Below, piece by piece: positions 31,849 to 39,982 of a DNA stretch of 64,000 bases. Location of the stretch: assembly GCA_015058875.1 (NCBI GenBank), contig SVBN01000005.1, forward strand, positions 1 through 64,000, in the 5' to 3' direction. The notes beneath the pieces are model-generated. The model saw nothing but the letters and a program-made list of their open reading frames with translations, did not search any database and was not told the origin of the DNA. The DNA comes from Erysipelotrichaceae bacterium (GTDB lineage Bacteria > Bacillota_I > Bacilli_A > Erysipelotrichales > Erysipelotrichaceae). Positions within the stretch are counted from its first letter, which is position 1; the number at the start of each line of letters is the position of its first letter. Made by a program: the position numbers and the translations under genes.

Positions 31849-33399
<1,551 letters not shown>

Positions 33400-34831: not shown

Positions 34832-35681
34832 ACAGCAGAGAAAACACGATTGTGCGGAATACCAGCATCACCGCCATGACAAGCGAGATGGGAATTGCCG
34901 TAAAAAGCATAAAGTTGCGGTCGGCAACACGATGGAAGATTTCCGTATAATACTTCTCCGTTATTTTCAATCCCCCAAGGATAAGATTCACAAACAGGCA
35001 CCCCGCCGCGAGAGTAAAAGGAAGATACGGCAGAGACCAGTACCGGATTTCCGCAACCCTGCCCGAAACCGAAAAAGCATCTTCCGCATAGGCAATATCA
35101 TGACGGAACGGCGTGAGAACCAGCAGTACCAGCAGACCGGACAGAAGACCGGCCATCCTGCTTTCGCCTCTCTGCCGAAAGAGCGCATACCCAAGTGCCG
35201 GCAATGCATAAAGGCTGATGATTCCGGTGGTTGTGCAGAAAATCTCGTGCATGATCAGACTGCCGGACAGTTTCGAAACAGCCTCCGCACAGATGCCCGC
35301 GGCAATCAGCGGCGAGATCATGATCAGCGTATCAAGGAGGCTGTGCAGTGTATCGGAACGGGATGGCGCCTTCTTATCGCCGAGCGCCCTGACAATGTTC
35401 TCATATGTTTCTTCCGTCTTCTGGAATGAAATCATTGTATCCGCCAGAATCAGACACTCCGCCCCATGCTTTTCAGCTGTTTCCTCCGCTTTAGCCAGAC
35501 GGTCTTTGACCTGCGGCGTCAGGATGACATAATCCGCCCATTCCATATGCTTTTCAGCATCCGCGGCGCCTGAGGAACGGAAGCTGTATTCCTGTTTCCT
35601 CTGCTGCGCAGTCATATTCAGTTTTCTTGCCAGGATACCGGATGTCAGTCCCTGGATACAGATAATCAGTATGTTTTTCAT
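34830..35681 (-). CDS. PTS IIB-like domain fused to a multi-TM membrane domain
   Basis: MKNILIICIQGLTSGILARKLN (IIB Cys P-loop) followed by a hydrophobic domain (~5-6 TM); start 35681 overlaps the regulator stop. Confidence 0.65.
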   Translation of the reverse strand: MKNILIICIQGLTSGILARKLNMTAQQRKQEYSFRSSGAADAEKHMEWADYVILTPQVKDRLAKAEETAEKHGAECLILADTMISFQKTEETYENIVRALGDKKAPSRSDTLHSLLDTLIMISPLIAAGICAEAVSKLSGSLIMHEIFCTTTGIISLYALPALGYALFRQRGESRMAGLLSGLLVLLVLTPFRHDIAYAEDAFSVSGRVAEIRYWSLPYLPFTLAAGCLFVNLILGGLKITEKYYTEIFHRVADRNFMLFTAIPISLVMAVMLVFRTIVFSLL

Positions 35682-37513
35682 GAGTTCATGCACGCCGTCA
35701 GTTCTTCCGCACACGGATTGTTTTCCAGGCGTTTCAGCAGTCTTCTGTCACAGGCTGTTTTCGTAATGCCGTCGATGATCCGCAGCCGCTGCGGATCGTC
35801 CGCAGATGTGGACACAAAGAATACGAACCGGACTTTCCCGTTTTCCCACCGCACCGGTTTCTTCAGAATATATACCAGCAGAACGGTCTGTTCCGGCAGA
35901 CAGTCATACGGATGCGGCAGAGCGCATTCATTGCCGATTTCCGTCGCCGACATTTCCTCCCGCTTCACAAGATTCTCATACAGCGCTTCCGCACTCGCAA
36001 AATACTGTCCCGCCCGTTCCGCAATATCCTTAAGGATTTCTTCCCTGTTTCTGAACTGCACTCCGGAAATGATCTGCCCGTCCGAAATGATACCCGTCCG
36101 CTTTTCCGCTTCGTGTTCCAGGAATTCACGGATTCTCCCGCTGCTTGCCGTATCAAGGGAAGGATGGATCAGAATAACGGGAATCGCGGTTTCAAACGGT
36201 ATGGCAACAGTCGAAAAGATGCACCGGTAGCCGCTCAGGTCCCTGTCGCGCAGAGCAACGGATGAACCGAAATCAATATTTGCGGCATCCAGTCCGAATT
36301 CATGGACCAGCTGATATTGCAGTATTCTGGCGGTTCCCCTGCCGGTGGAGCATACCAGCAGATACCTGTTTTCCTTCTTCTGTTCACTACGGTTCTCGGA
36401 TTCCAGATTGCTGAGCTCGAGGGAAAAGTGCATCGCCAGATAGCTGCATTCCTGATTATTCATATCATATCCGTATGCCTCACGGATCACTTCACCGGCA
36501 ACCAGAGCCAGATCATATCCCATGGTCATTTCCCTGCGTACCTGCTCAAACAGCGGATTCTCCTGCGGGATATGATATTTCAGCCGTATCAGCATCGGCT
36601 GCAGATGCAGTGCCAGGTTGACTATCAGATCAAAGCGGCCTGTCAGATCAATTCCTTTGACTTCCCGGATCCGCTCAAGGATCTGATGCGTCAGTTCCAT
36701 CACATTCTCATCCAGCTCGCTGTTTTCCGTAATCACTTCCTTGCCCAGAAGATGCAGAAGAACGTAATTCACCTCTTCCTGCGGAATATCCACATGGAAA
36801 TCTTCAGAAATCCGGGCAATCAGTTCATGAGCGATTTTCTCCTGCACCGGATAAGACTGATTCAGCACGATCGGTTCCATAATAAACTGATTCTCGTGCA
36901 CACGCTTCACGGTAATCAGAAGATGATAAACAAGATTATTGAAATTCAGATCCGAAATTTCATAATCATTCTCCTGCAGTATTTCATACAGTGCTTTCTG
37001 CATCTTCTGTTCCGAATGGGTATCTTCCATTTCACCTGTCAGCGACCTTGCATAGCACAGCCGCTTATTCTTTTCGGATCCATCAATCCGTATTCCGTAT
37101 TTCGGCCGTGCTGTCAGTTCCAGATCAAACCCGGCAAGTTCTTCCTTGACTGCTTTGATGATTCTGTCCATTGCGGTCCGGGAAACGAAAAACTGATCGG
37201 CAAGATCGTCAATGCGGACATAATCGTTCCGGTTAAGAAGATCATAAAGAACTTCTTTCTTCATCTCTTCCGAGGCATCGCTGCCGCTGAATGCGGCGGA
37301 AAACGCGCTGCTGTCATGGATGATCAAACGGACGTCCCTGCGGAATGAGCTTTCCAGCGAGAAACCTTCCGCTCTGTTCTCAGGTGCGCTCTCTTTCAGA
37401 ATCTGACGGATATAGCGGGGTGTGAATCCGGTACGTTCCGCCAGTTCCTGTACCGGAAGCGCCGCATTTTCCGCAGACAGAATTCTGACAATTTCCTTTA
37501 CCGAGTCTTTCAT
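35678..37513 (-). CDS. BglG/LicR-type PTS-regulated transcriptional activator (HTH, PRD, IIB-like, EIIA domains)
   Basis: N-terminal HTHs; PRD regions with conserved His; LLVCSTGRGTARIL IIB-like; C-terminal EIIA with ECALPHPYD. Confidence 0.88.
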   Translation of the reverse strand: MKDSVKEIVRILSAENAALPVQELAERTGFTPRYIRQILKESAPENRAEGFSLESSFRRDVRLIIHDSSAFSAAFSGSDASEEMKKEVLYDLLNRNDYVRIDDLADQFFVSRTAMDRIIKAVKEELAGFDLELTARPKYGIRIDGSEKNKRLCYARSLTGEMEDTHSEQKMQKALYEILQENDYEISDLNFNNLVYHLLITVKRVHENQFIMEPIVLNQSYPVQEKIAHELIARISEDFHVDIPQEEVNYVLLHLLGKEVITENSELDENVMELTHQILERIREVKGIDLTGRFDLIVNLALHLQPMLIRLKYHIPQENPLFEQVRREMTMGYDLALVAGEVIREAYGYDMNNQECSYLAMHFSLELSNLESENRSEQKKENRYLLVCSTGRGTARILQYQLVHEFGLDAANIDFGSSVALRDRDLSGYRCIFSTVAIPFETAIPVILIHPSLDTASSGRIREFLEHEAEKRTGIISDGQIISGVQFRNREEILKDIAERAGQYFASAEALYENLVKREEMSATEIGNECALPHPYDCLPEQTVLLVYILKKPVRWENGKVRFVFFVSTSADDPQRLRIIDGITKTACDRRLLKRLENNPCAEELTACMNS

Positions 37514-37741
37514 ATTTTTATTTTAACGCGCTGAACGGGACATCCGCACATCTGAAGTTCAATCCCGTCATTTTTCTCAGGAAAGCAGACGATTGTCTGA
37601 GAGAGAAATCTTTCTTCACTTTCCGAAAAAAAGAATATCCTTATCAGATACAGGATATTCTCTGCTTCTTCTGAATCGCCGGAATCACCTCCCGGTTCTC
37701 TTCTTTTCATATTTCTGAAGGTATTTCAGCGGTTTCTGTTC

Positions 37742-37981
37742 TCATTGATCCGCATCTTTATCAGAGATGATTTTCCCAATCTCTTCCGGAGTGAATTCGG
37801 GATACCCATCACAGACAGCCTGAATCGCCTGTTCAGATGATCCGGTCAGTTCAAACAGTGCTTCGTACATTTTTGCCGCATTCTCTCTTTTCACTTCCAT
37901 GAGACCTTCGGCATAACCTTCTGCATAACCTTCAGCTCTTCCAATCTCTTTCCACTCGAGTTCATGCTGTTTCATTTCCAT
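37742..37981 (-). CDS. Stand-alone RpnS-like small protein, tandem partial duplicate of the downstream Rpn C-terminal region
   Basis: 79 aa MEMKQHELEWKEIGRAEGYAEGYAEG... nearly identical at the N-terminus to the internal segment MEMKQHELEWKEIGKAEGLAEG of the neighbouring Rpn ORF; DNA identity begins at GAAGGTACGCT (RBS). Confidence 0.72.
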   Translation of the reverse strand: MEMKQHELEWKEIGRAEGYAEGYAEGLMEVKRENAAKMYEALFELTGSSEQAIQAVCDGYPEFTPEEIGKIISDKDADQ

Positions 37982-38012
37982 ACAGCGTACCTTCTCTCAG
38001 TCTGCAAAATCT

Positions 38013-38300
38013 TTATTGCACTGCAATACTCTCATTCATCTCTGATGACAGGATACTTCTGATCTCTTCAGCGGTGAATTCGGGATACTTATCGCAGACA
38101 GCACGGAAAGCATTTTCTGCAGATCCTGTCATTTCAATCCCTGCCGCATACAGGTTCATCATTCCGCGTCTGCGTTCTTCTGCTTTTCCCTCAGCCAGTC
38201 CTTCAGCTTTACCTTCTGCCAGTCCTTCAGCTTTTCCTTCAGCCAGTCCTTCAGCCTTTCCTATCTCTTTCCACTCAAGTTCATGCTGTTTCATTTCCAT
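38013..38300 (-). CDS. Candidate internal cistron (RpnS-like, 95 aa) in frame within the Rpn gene
   Basis: Internal ATG at 38300 preceded by GGAAGG 8 nt upstream (GGAAGGTACGCTATATG); same RBS/start retained in the 37742-37981 duplicate. Confidence 0.6.
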   Translation of the reverse strand: MEMKQHELEWKEIGKAEGLAEGKAEGLAEGKAEGLAEGKAEERRRGMMNLYAAGIEMTGSAENAFRAVCDKYPEFTAEEIRSILSSEMNESIAVQ

Positions 38301-38912
38301 ATAGCGTACCTTCCATTCCGGATTTCTGCTGTAGTACTGTACGCTTTTATCAATTGCTTCAACGAACTCGTCAGTACCGTCATTATCCCCTGTCAGAACA
38401 TAATCACAGAACGGCACAAGCTCCGGATACTGCTCCCTGTTTTTTCCGGAACAGTTCAGATATATCGTATATCTCTCGTCATCCAGTACTTTTCCCGTCT
38501 CAAGACATACCGTCCTGTATGTGTATACCATTATATCATCCCCGATCATGTCTTTCGGACTGATTATGATCACGTATGTTGCTTTCAGATTGCTGTAATA
38601 CCTGTCGATTTTATTCAGCTGTCTCATATCGTTCATGGAATGATAGTATCTTCCCCTTTTCGGCATGAAGTCACTTCCCCTCACCTGCATCTCAACGATA
38701 TACACAACGCTTCCGTCTTCGGCGCAGATATCCAGACGGATCCCTTTCAGCAGCGGATCTTCATCAACCGTTCTTTCCCTGATGATTGTCAGTCCTTCCA
38801 GGGAAACATCCGGCAGGATCCGTTTCAGAAGCTCCCTCAGTTTTTTCTCATCTTCAAAGACAGTTGTGAACATGAAGTTATTCTGCAGCGATATTTTGAT
38901 CTTTTCAGTCAT
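38013..38912 (-). CDS. Rpn family recombination-promoting nuclease / putative transposase (PD-(D/E)XK)
   Basis: MTEKIKISLQNNFMFTTVFEDEKKLRELLKRILPD...DPLLKGIRLDICAEDGSVVYIVEMQ...KRGRYYHSMNDM; C-terminal GLAEGKAE repeats. Confidence 0.92.
   Translation of the reverse strand: MTEKIKISLQNNFMFTTVFEDEKKLRELLKRILPDVSLEGLTIIRERTVDEDPLLKGIRLDICAEDGSVVYIVEMQVRGSDFMPKRGRYYHSMNDMRQLNKIDRYYSNLKATYVIIISPKDMIGDDIMVYTYRTVCLETGKVLDDERYTIYLNCSGKNREQYPELVPFCDYVLTGDNDGTDEFVEAIDKSVQYYSRNPEWKVRYMEMKQHELEWKEIGKAEGLAEGKAEGLAEGKAEGLAEGKAEERRRGMMNLYAAGIEMTGSAENAFRAVCDKYPEFTAEEIRSILSSEMNESIAVQ
38183..38254 (-). repeat. 24-bp in-frame tandem repeat (3 copies) encoding GLAEGKAE units
   Basis: cttttccctcagccagtccttcag / ctttaccttctgccagtccttcag / cttttccttcagccagtccttcag. 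Confidence 0.88.
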
Positions 38913-39068
38913 CTGATTTACCATCCTTCTGTTAATAACATTTGCCAGAAAAATCAAAAACCACCTGGGCAGCATAAAAAAATTTCACTTTTTTCATCAA
39001 TACAGCAAAAACCGTTTGATTATTGCCTCATATTTCAAAACTTCAAATGATAAGAGATGCTAAGACAC

Positions 39069-39130: not shown

Positions 39131-39982
39131 TCACTCCATGTCCAGAGGAACCTTATGCTTCGGCGCCGGGAATGCATGACTCAGCACATCCAATTCCTGT
39201 TCAGTGAACACAATTTCCGCTGCCTGACGGTTGCTTTCCGCATGCGCCGCTGTCGAAGCTTTCGGAATCGATATCACAAGGTCCTTCTGCATTGTAAATG
39301 CCAGCAGAACCTGCATGATTGTCAGTCCTCTGTTCTCCGCAATCTCTTTCAGTTCCGGAGAGCTGAGCAGTTTCTGTTTCAGTCTTCCGCCCTGTGCGAG
39401 CGGACAGTATGCCATCATCGGGATATGATGCTCTTCCAGCCATGGAAGCAGATCATACTCTACGCCTCTGCTTCCGAGATGATAAAGGACCTGATTCACC
39501 TGACACTGGTCTCCGTCTTTTACTCTGAGCAATTCCTTCATATCTGCCGTGTCAAAATTTGAAACGCCCCAGCGCAGAATCTTTCCCTGCTTTTTCAGTT
39601 CCTCCATGCACGCAACCGTTTCAGCAAGCGGTATGCTTCCCTTCCAGTGCAGAAGATACAGATCCAGATAATCCGTCCCCATCCGCATCAGACTATCCTC
39701 ACAGCTTGCGAAAATATTGTTTCTGCCCGCATTCCATGGATATACCTTGGAAACAAGAAACAGTTTTTCACGCTCATACGGACTGATCGCATCACCGGTC
39801 AGCTCCTCTGCGGCACCATCGCCGTACATCTCTGCCGAGTCAATCAGCGTCATTCCGTGTTCAATGCCCCAGCGCAGTGTTTCAAGTTCACTATGATATT
39901 TTTGTCTGTTTTCGCCCAGGTTCCATGTTCCCTGTCCAAGCTGCGGAACAGCCGTTCCGTCTTTCAATAATACTGCCTTCAT
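39131..39982 (-). CDS. Aldo/keto reductase
   Basis: VPQLGQGTWNLGE...LIDSAEMYGDGAAEEL...YLDLYLLHWKGSIPLAET...RWGVSNFD. Confidence 0.94.
   Translation of the reverse strand: MKAVLLKDGTAVPQLGQGTWNLGENRQKYHSELETLRWGIEHGMTLIDSAEMYGDGAAEELTGDAISPYEREKLFLVSKVYPWNAGRNNIFASCEDSLMRMGTDYLDLYLLHWKGSIPLAETVACMEELKKQGKILRWGVSNFDTADMKELLRVKDGDQCQVNQVLYHLGSRGVEYDLLPWLEEHHIPMMAYCPLAQGGRLKQKLLSSPELKEIAENRGLTIMQVLLAFTMQKDLVISIPKASTAAHAESNRQAAEIVFTEQELDVLSHAFPAPKHKVPLDME

Follow-up and report, generated by a model that had tools for sequence, protein, structure and literature searches.

An Rpn toxin–antitoxin locus with a free-standing copy of the toxin's own antitoxin tail behind the toxin gene was identified in the window, a 64,000-nucleotide stretch of DNA from an uncultured Solobacterium-like Erysipelotrichaceae genome. 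The locus is an ordinary Rpn family member accompanied by an external RpnS, and this organization is known from earlier work. Comparison with related loci suggests that the external RpnS is a selected tail module of altered specificity and a recombination partner of the toxin gene, rather than a plain spare antitoxin, a reading for which we judge the case about evenly balanced.

Organization of the rpn locus

The preliminary description had placed an Rpn gene and a 79-codon ORF at this site, and the coordinates, frames, and sequences of both agree with the window DNA. The gene rpnL (38013–38912, minus strand) starts with an ATG at 38912, ends with a stop codon at 38015–38013, and encodes a full-length Rpn-family PD-(D/E)XK nuclease of 299 aa, assigned from the ORF and from the TIGR01784 and PDDEXK_2 models. 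Its C-terminal module, the predicted internal RpnS of 95 aa (38013–38300, minus strand), would be translated from an internal ATG at 38300. This start, also proposed in the preliminary description, is preceded at a distance of 8 nt by the Shine-Dalgarno-like GGAAGG (38309–38314, minus strand; sequence reading), and external copies at other loci begin at the aligned codon. Tandem repeats of 12/24 nt, detected by TRF at 38177–38262 (minus strand), correspond to the 4-aa repeats (KAEG/LAEG) in helix 1 of RpnL and the internal RpnS.

The external rpnS (37742–37981, minus strand) is a free-standing ORF of 79 aa homologous to the RpnL C-terminus, as judged from the ORF, blastp, and an AlphaFold2 model. 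It starts with an ATG at 37981, 31 nt past the rpnL stop codon, and its own stop ends at 37742. A Shine-Dalgarno-like AGAAGG (37990–37995, minus strand; sequence reading) lies 8 nt 5′ of this ATG, within the stretch that both starts have in common, and 2.5 copies of a 12-nt repeat (37904–37933, minus strand; TRF) correspond to the 4-aa repeats of the external protein. A candidate terminator was read by eye 3′ of the external rpnS (37626–37660, minus strand) as GAATATCC, 12 nt, and GGATATTC, followed by T7; a terminator scan with a loop limit of 8 did not flag this hairpin, which has a 12-nt loop. Because the hairpin stands 3′ of the external rpnS and none was seen in the 31-nt gap, the two genes are likely read from a single message. 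The promoter scan at the locus returned one site versus 2.7 expected by chance, an uninformative outcome.

On one side, the locus is flanked by an aldo/keto reductase gene (39131–39982), which lies behind TPI and enolase, and on the other by a gene for a 611-aa transcriptional regulator (35678–37513) that reads like the BglG/PTS-domain type. Elsewhere in the window, positions 31857–33086 are 66–73% similar to two stretches of contig C125 (L031, 186–414 and 1678–1896), a repeated gene family.

Family assignment and features of RpnS

RpnL matched the TIGR01784 family model with 77.1 bits (cut-off 52.1) and Pfam PDDEXK_2 with 45.6 bits (cut-off 27.4). Sequence comparison places the candidate catalytic residues D61, E74, and Q76, within GIRLDICAEDGSVVYIVEMQ, at the positions of RpnA D63, E82, and Q84, and E74 is invariant in alignment A1. 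The position of RpnA D11, which is needed for RpnA activity, is occupied by the asparagine common in the genus consensus (LQNNFMF; by-eye alignment to RpnA). The hypervariable 4-aa repeats of RpnS helix 1 are also present, as detected by TRF and by the change in copy number between cassette copies.

The AlphaFold2 model of the external RpnS contains three helices (residues 4–46, 49–59, and 65–78) with a mean pLDDT of 78, falling to 58–59 at the start of helix 1; RpnL folded alone gave a poor model (pLDDT 58), which was set aside. Foldseek returned no significant PDB match for the external RpnS model, no sequence match was found between the window protein and the RpnA/RpnAS structure (PDB 7TH0), PADLOC had no model matching the locus, and a search of the genome contigs with the window RpnL as query found no relatives. 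Eight RpnL proteins of the genus, once aligned, showed too little conservation to serve as a query. The window locus resembles E. coli rpnA/RpnAS (PDB 7TH0) and plasmid rpnP2 in its PD-(D/E)XK nuclease, its C-terminal antitoxin with a predicted internal start, and its 4-aa repeats in the first helix, but an external RpnS has been described for neither.

The layout itself had been thought new in the preliminary description. However, it was already reported in E. coli, where ypaA, encoding RpnES, lies downstream of rpnE and a second rpnCS lies downstream of rpnC in some strains (Zhong et al., 2023; PMC10327210). Within the literature collection searched, no later paper on this layout was found. 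As in the window, each of these E. coli loci combines an internal RpnS start with a same-strand, free-standing RpnS that is homologous to the tail of its neighboring Rpn gene and differs from it in repeat number. The window locus differs in belonging to a distant Rpn subfamily of a Firmicutes gut bacterium, with a 31-nt gap and an external body approximately half identical to the internal one. RpnES is produced from ypaA in E. coli (Zhong et al., 2023; PMC10327210), whereas the window external RpnS is a predicted protein.

Comparison of the internal and external modules

The external ORF is a homologue of the rpnL tail, as had been proposed: blastp of the rpnL product against the neighboring ORF, within the locus, gave 59% identity over 85 aa (E value, 2.6e-26), and the pair matched with an E value of 8.9e-22 in a whole-genome tblastn search. 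The survey loci also contain approximately 366 non-Rpn ORFs with a length of 150 aa or more; these yielded almost no comparable same-strand neighbor pairs, and the homology in the window is above chance.

From GAAGGTACGCT onward, the internal and external copies share approximately 54 nt with 3 substitutions, after which divergence climbs. The external ORF opens with the same 14 residues as the internal module and has the same 8-nt Shine-Dalgarno spacing. In RpnAS, the corresponding start region belongs to the dimerising helix (Zhong et al., 2023; PMC10327210). Across the first 14 codons, none of the non-synonymous and 2 of the 5.3 synonymous sites differ, so the tight match can reflect protein constraint and is by itself no proof of recent gene conversion. 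For the window pair, the near identity of the first 54 nt had brought gene conversion into consideration, but this reading was not adopted: with so few synonymous sites, it cannot be distinguished from constraint on the protein.

Among 148 genomes of the family, the window external tail matched only its own locus and a sister copy, and no relatives were found outside its own genome. Since, in addition, three unrelated tandem pairs occur in this one genome, these comparisons indicate that the external module arises from its own neighbor and not from a common external lineage.

Recurrence in related genomes

A search for small tail homologues beside Rpn genes, as envisaged in the preliminary description, covered approximately 105 rpn regions, nearly all from 70 genomes of the genus. 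An external RpnS was carried by 16 of the 80 Rpn-like ORFs with at least 350 nt downstream (20%, a rough share, as the regions were partly picked by tail hits). Fifteen of these loci have it downstream and one upstream, and two loci (L125 and L130) carry two modules each, for a total of 18. In the upstream case (L079 1483–2684; G044:C8), the external RpnS ends 21 nt before its Rpn gene. The modules are found across unrelated Rpn subfamilies. Three of the loci, those of the window, C105, and C109, belong to the window genome, where the latter two hold further, unrelated Rpn genes, each with an external tail module of its own (L025 3317–4639, G000:C105; L132 821–1957, G000:C109). More distant relatives of the same class contributed 17 further loci, of which L262, L267, and L271 carry a single external module each and L275 carries three; in this last case, from a complete genome (L275 567–2298; G277), the three follow the Rpn gene in succession.

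As a rule, the first codon of an external ORF aligns with the internal start codon, and the internal Shine-Dalgarno sequence was often duplicated along with it, with up to 24 of 24 nt upstream of the start identical between the two modules (L122 and L130). The shared start codon and the duplicated Shine-Dalgarno sequence give independent support to the internal start being real.

Two further observations concern the layout. At L262 (2304–2420) and L267 of genome G284, rpnL and the external module are separated by a hairpin-like sequence, and the external gene there may therefore have its own promoter. In genome G015, two nuclease-like proteins with AEG-type repeat tails and an N-domain unlike that of typical Rpn (L136 737–2144; L147 741–2757) have small downstream tail homologues, and the external-tail arrangement may thus reach beyond classic Rpn.

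A second copy of the cassette in the window genome

A cassette comprising 82 nt of upstream sequence, rpnL, and the external rpnS (37764–38994, minus strand) has, by homology, a second place in the same assembly, next to ribosomal protein genes. Contig C86 ends with the cassette start (L024 4768–4927), and contig C13 ends with the 3′ part and the external module (L023 4368–4967); the middle of this copy falls in the unassembled gap between the two contigs, and the copy might also come from another strain in the bin. The homology runs from 38994 to 37764, and the toxin and external module therefore moved together. Two relatives, the Solobacterium sp. MAGs L176 and L177, retain the TPI–enolase–reductase genes and have no cassette.

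The two copies differ by few substitutions. Relative to the window cassette, the other copy is shorter by 72 nt (six repeats) in its internal repeats and by 12 nt (one repeat) in its external ones, and the last codons of its external ORF are lost. The helix spacers are 46 and 22 aa in the internal modules and 34 and 30 aa in the external ones, with no two equal.

Selection and repeat number

The dN/dS between internal and external modules was mostly 0.08–0.43, lying in this range in every pair with measurable dS, and was 0.16 in the window pair, where dS is near saturation; a neutral external copy is expected to show values well above 0.5. Of the 13 pairs whose start is defined, 10 had a dN that was lower across the first 14 codons than across the last 34. 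These values point to protein-level selection on the external module.

The number of 4-aa helix repeats differs between the two modules in 13 of the 16 pairs in the genus, mostly by multiples of four residues, and is equal in the other three. All seven E. coli rpnC loci differ as well, with internal spacers of 27, 35, 35, 39, 31, 31, and 43 aa and external spacers of 19, 21, 21, 25, 21, 25, and 19 aa, respectively, and E. coli rpnE and ypaA are one repeat apart. The same E. coli external protein (WP_000404121.1) adjoins RpnC proteins with 39- and 31-aa spacers. A previous study demonstrated that repeat number sets partner specificity in RpnC and that a single added repeat leaves RpnCS unable to counteract RpnC, a rule measured in an overexpression assay and for E. 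coli RpnC only (Zhong et al., 2023; PMC10327210). Taken with this result, the mismatch predicts that most external modules would not fully neutralise their neighbor.

These data bear on the spare, neutralising antitoxin, one of the options listed in the preliminary description beside a heterodimer partner of RpnL and an exchange donor, in which the external RpnS adds antitoxin dosage and neutralises the adjacent RpnL despite its different repeat number. The same-strand position 31 nt behind the toxin, the good Shine-Dalgarno sequence, the constraint on the module, and the production of RpnES from ypaA in E. coli are all as expected of such an antitoxin. The 14 identical first residues, in the helix that dimerises in RpnAS, fit as well, and with this helix start conserved, the external module could still bind and inhibit the adjacent RpnL. 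However, internal and external repeat numbers are uncoupled both in the genus and in E. coli, and one extra repeat abolishes neutralisation in RpnC. The mismatch, which is seen at the window locus as well as in E. coli and most relatives, weakens the idea, and we regard it as possible but unlikely.

A mismatched module might instead act against other versions of RpnL, protecting the cell from sibling copies, earlier toxin versions, or incoming alleles with a different tail. The mismatch with the adjacent RpnL, the presence of several Rpn copies per genome, the constraint, and the arrays of diverged external modules at L130 and L275 are consistent with this role. In the window genome, however, each of the two external modules differs in repeat length from both RpnL proteins of the same family, and we consider this role rather improbable. 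Least probable is a neutral remnant of the tandem duplication heading to decay, to which the lost last codons at the second place and the deletion of the external gene in E. coli strains would correspond, but the low dN/dS, the many independent origins, and the fact that start, Shine-Dalgarno sequence, and frame are intact throughout the 18 external modules (ORFs had to reach 45 aa to be detected) stand against it.

Exchange of tails between modules

The preliminary description had also offered the external module as a donor for C-terminal exchange, and this option gains direct comparative support from other loci. E. coli strains WP2-W18-ESBL-10 (L165) and 48956 (L173) show no mismatch over 3.0 kb, and differ only by a 278-nt deletion, through which the external C-terminus has become fused to the nuclease and helix of rpnC across approximately 50 nt common to both tails. 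Loci L125 and L127 of genome G014 are identical over approximately 700 nt of nuclease and helix 1 and have different bodies; the alternative body sits in the external module of L125, and the same next module follows in both loci. In genome G284, L262 and L267 have near-identical nucleases, and their internal and external modules have traded repeat segments. In genome G040, the N-domains of L067 and L075 are 98% identical and their tails 24%. All of these are comparisons of natural sequences, which give neither direction nor rate, and at the window locus itself no tail exchange was observed.

Proposed role of the external RpnS

The reading of the external RpnS as an altered-specificity tail module and recombination partner would work as follows. 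An Rpn gene would encode a toxic nuclease, RpnL, and an antitoxin, RpnS, started within the same gene. The stretch reaching from the internal ribosome-binding site to the end of the gene was duplicated in tandem, giving a free-standing RpnS that is probably read from the same message. This second RpnS retains the first part of the dimerisation helix, but its count of 4-aa repeats is different and its body has diverged. Exchange via the common helix-1 or body sequence would then place the external tail onto RpnL, changing the toxin–antitoxin specificity in one step. Tail exchange may also be a chance side effect of the module being present twice.

Polymorphic toxin systems have orphan immunity or tail modules located 3′ of the active gene, onto which these modules can recombine. 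The window locus is similar in having an extra specificity module 3′ of the active gene that would be recombinable onto it, but here the spare module is an antitoxin that is also the toxin's own C-terminus, and no secretion system is involved.

A bolder proposal is that selection keeps mismatched RpnS copies beside the toxin as an archive for one-step switching of specificity, like the silent cassettes for surface antigens. Recombination would perhaps be started by the Rpn nuclease itself, and switching would allow escape from phage factors that target one tail. We put this forward tentatively and think it doubtful.

The present comparison adds that a gut Firmicutes genus commonly carries free-standing RpnS copies, that these also occur as arrays, that they are usually repeat-mismatched with their neighbor, and that they take part in tail exchange. 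The question of why Rpn tails vary so fast thereby becomes testable: a mismatched external RpnS should fail to neutralise its neighbor, and it should be possible to trace a tail switch to a single recombination event.
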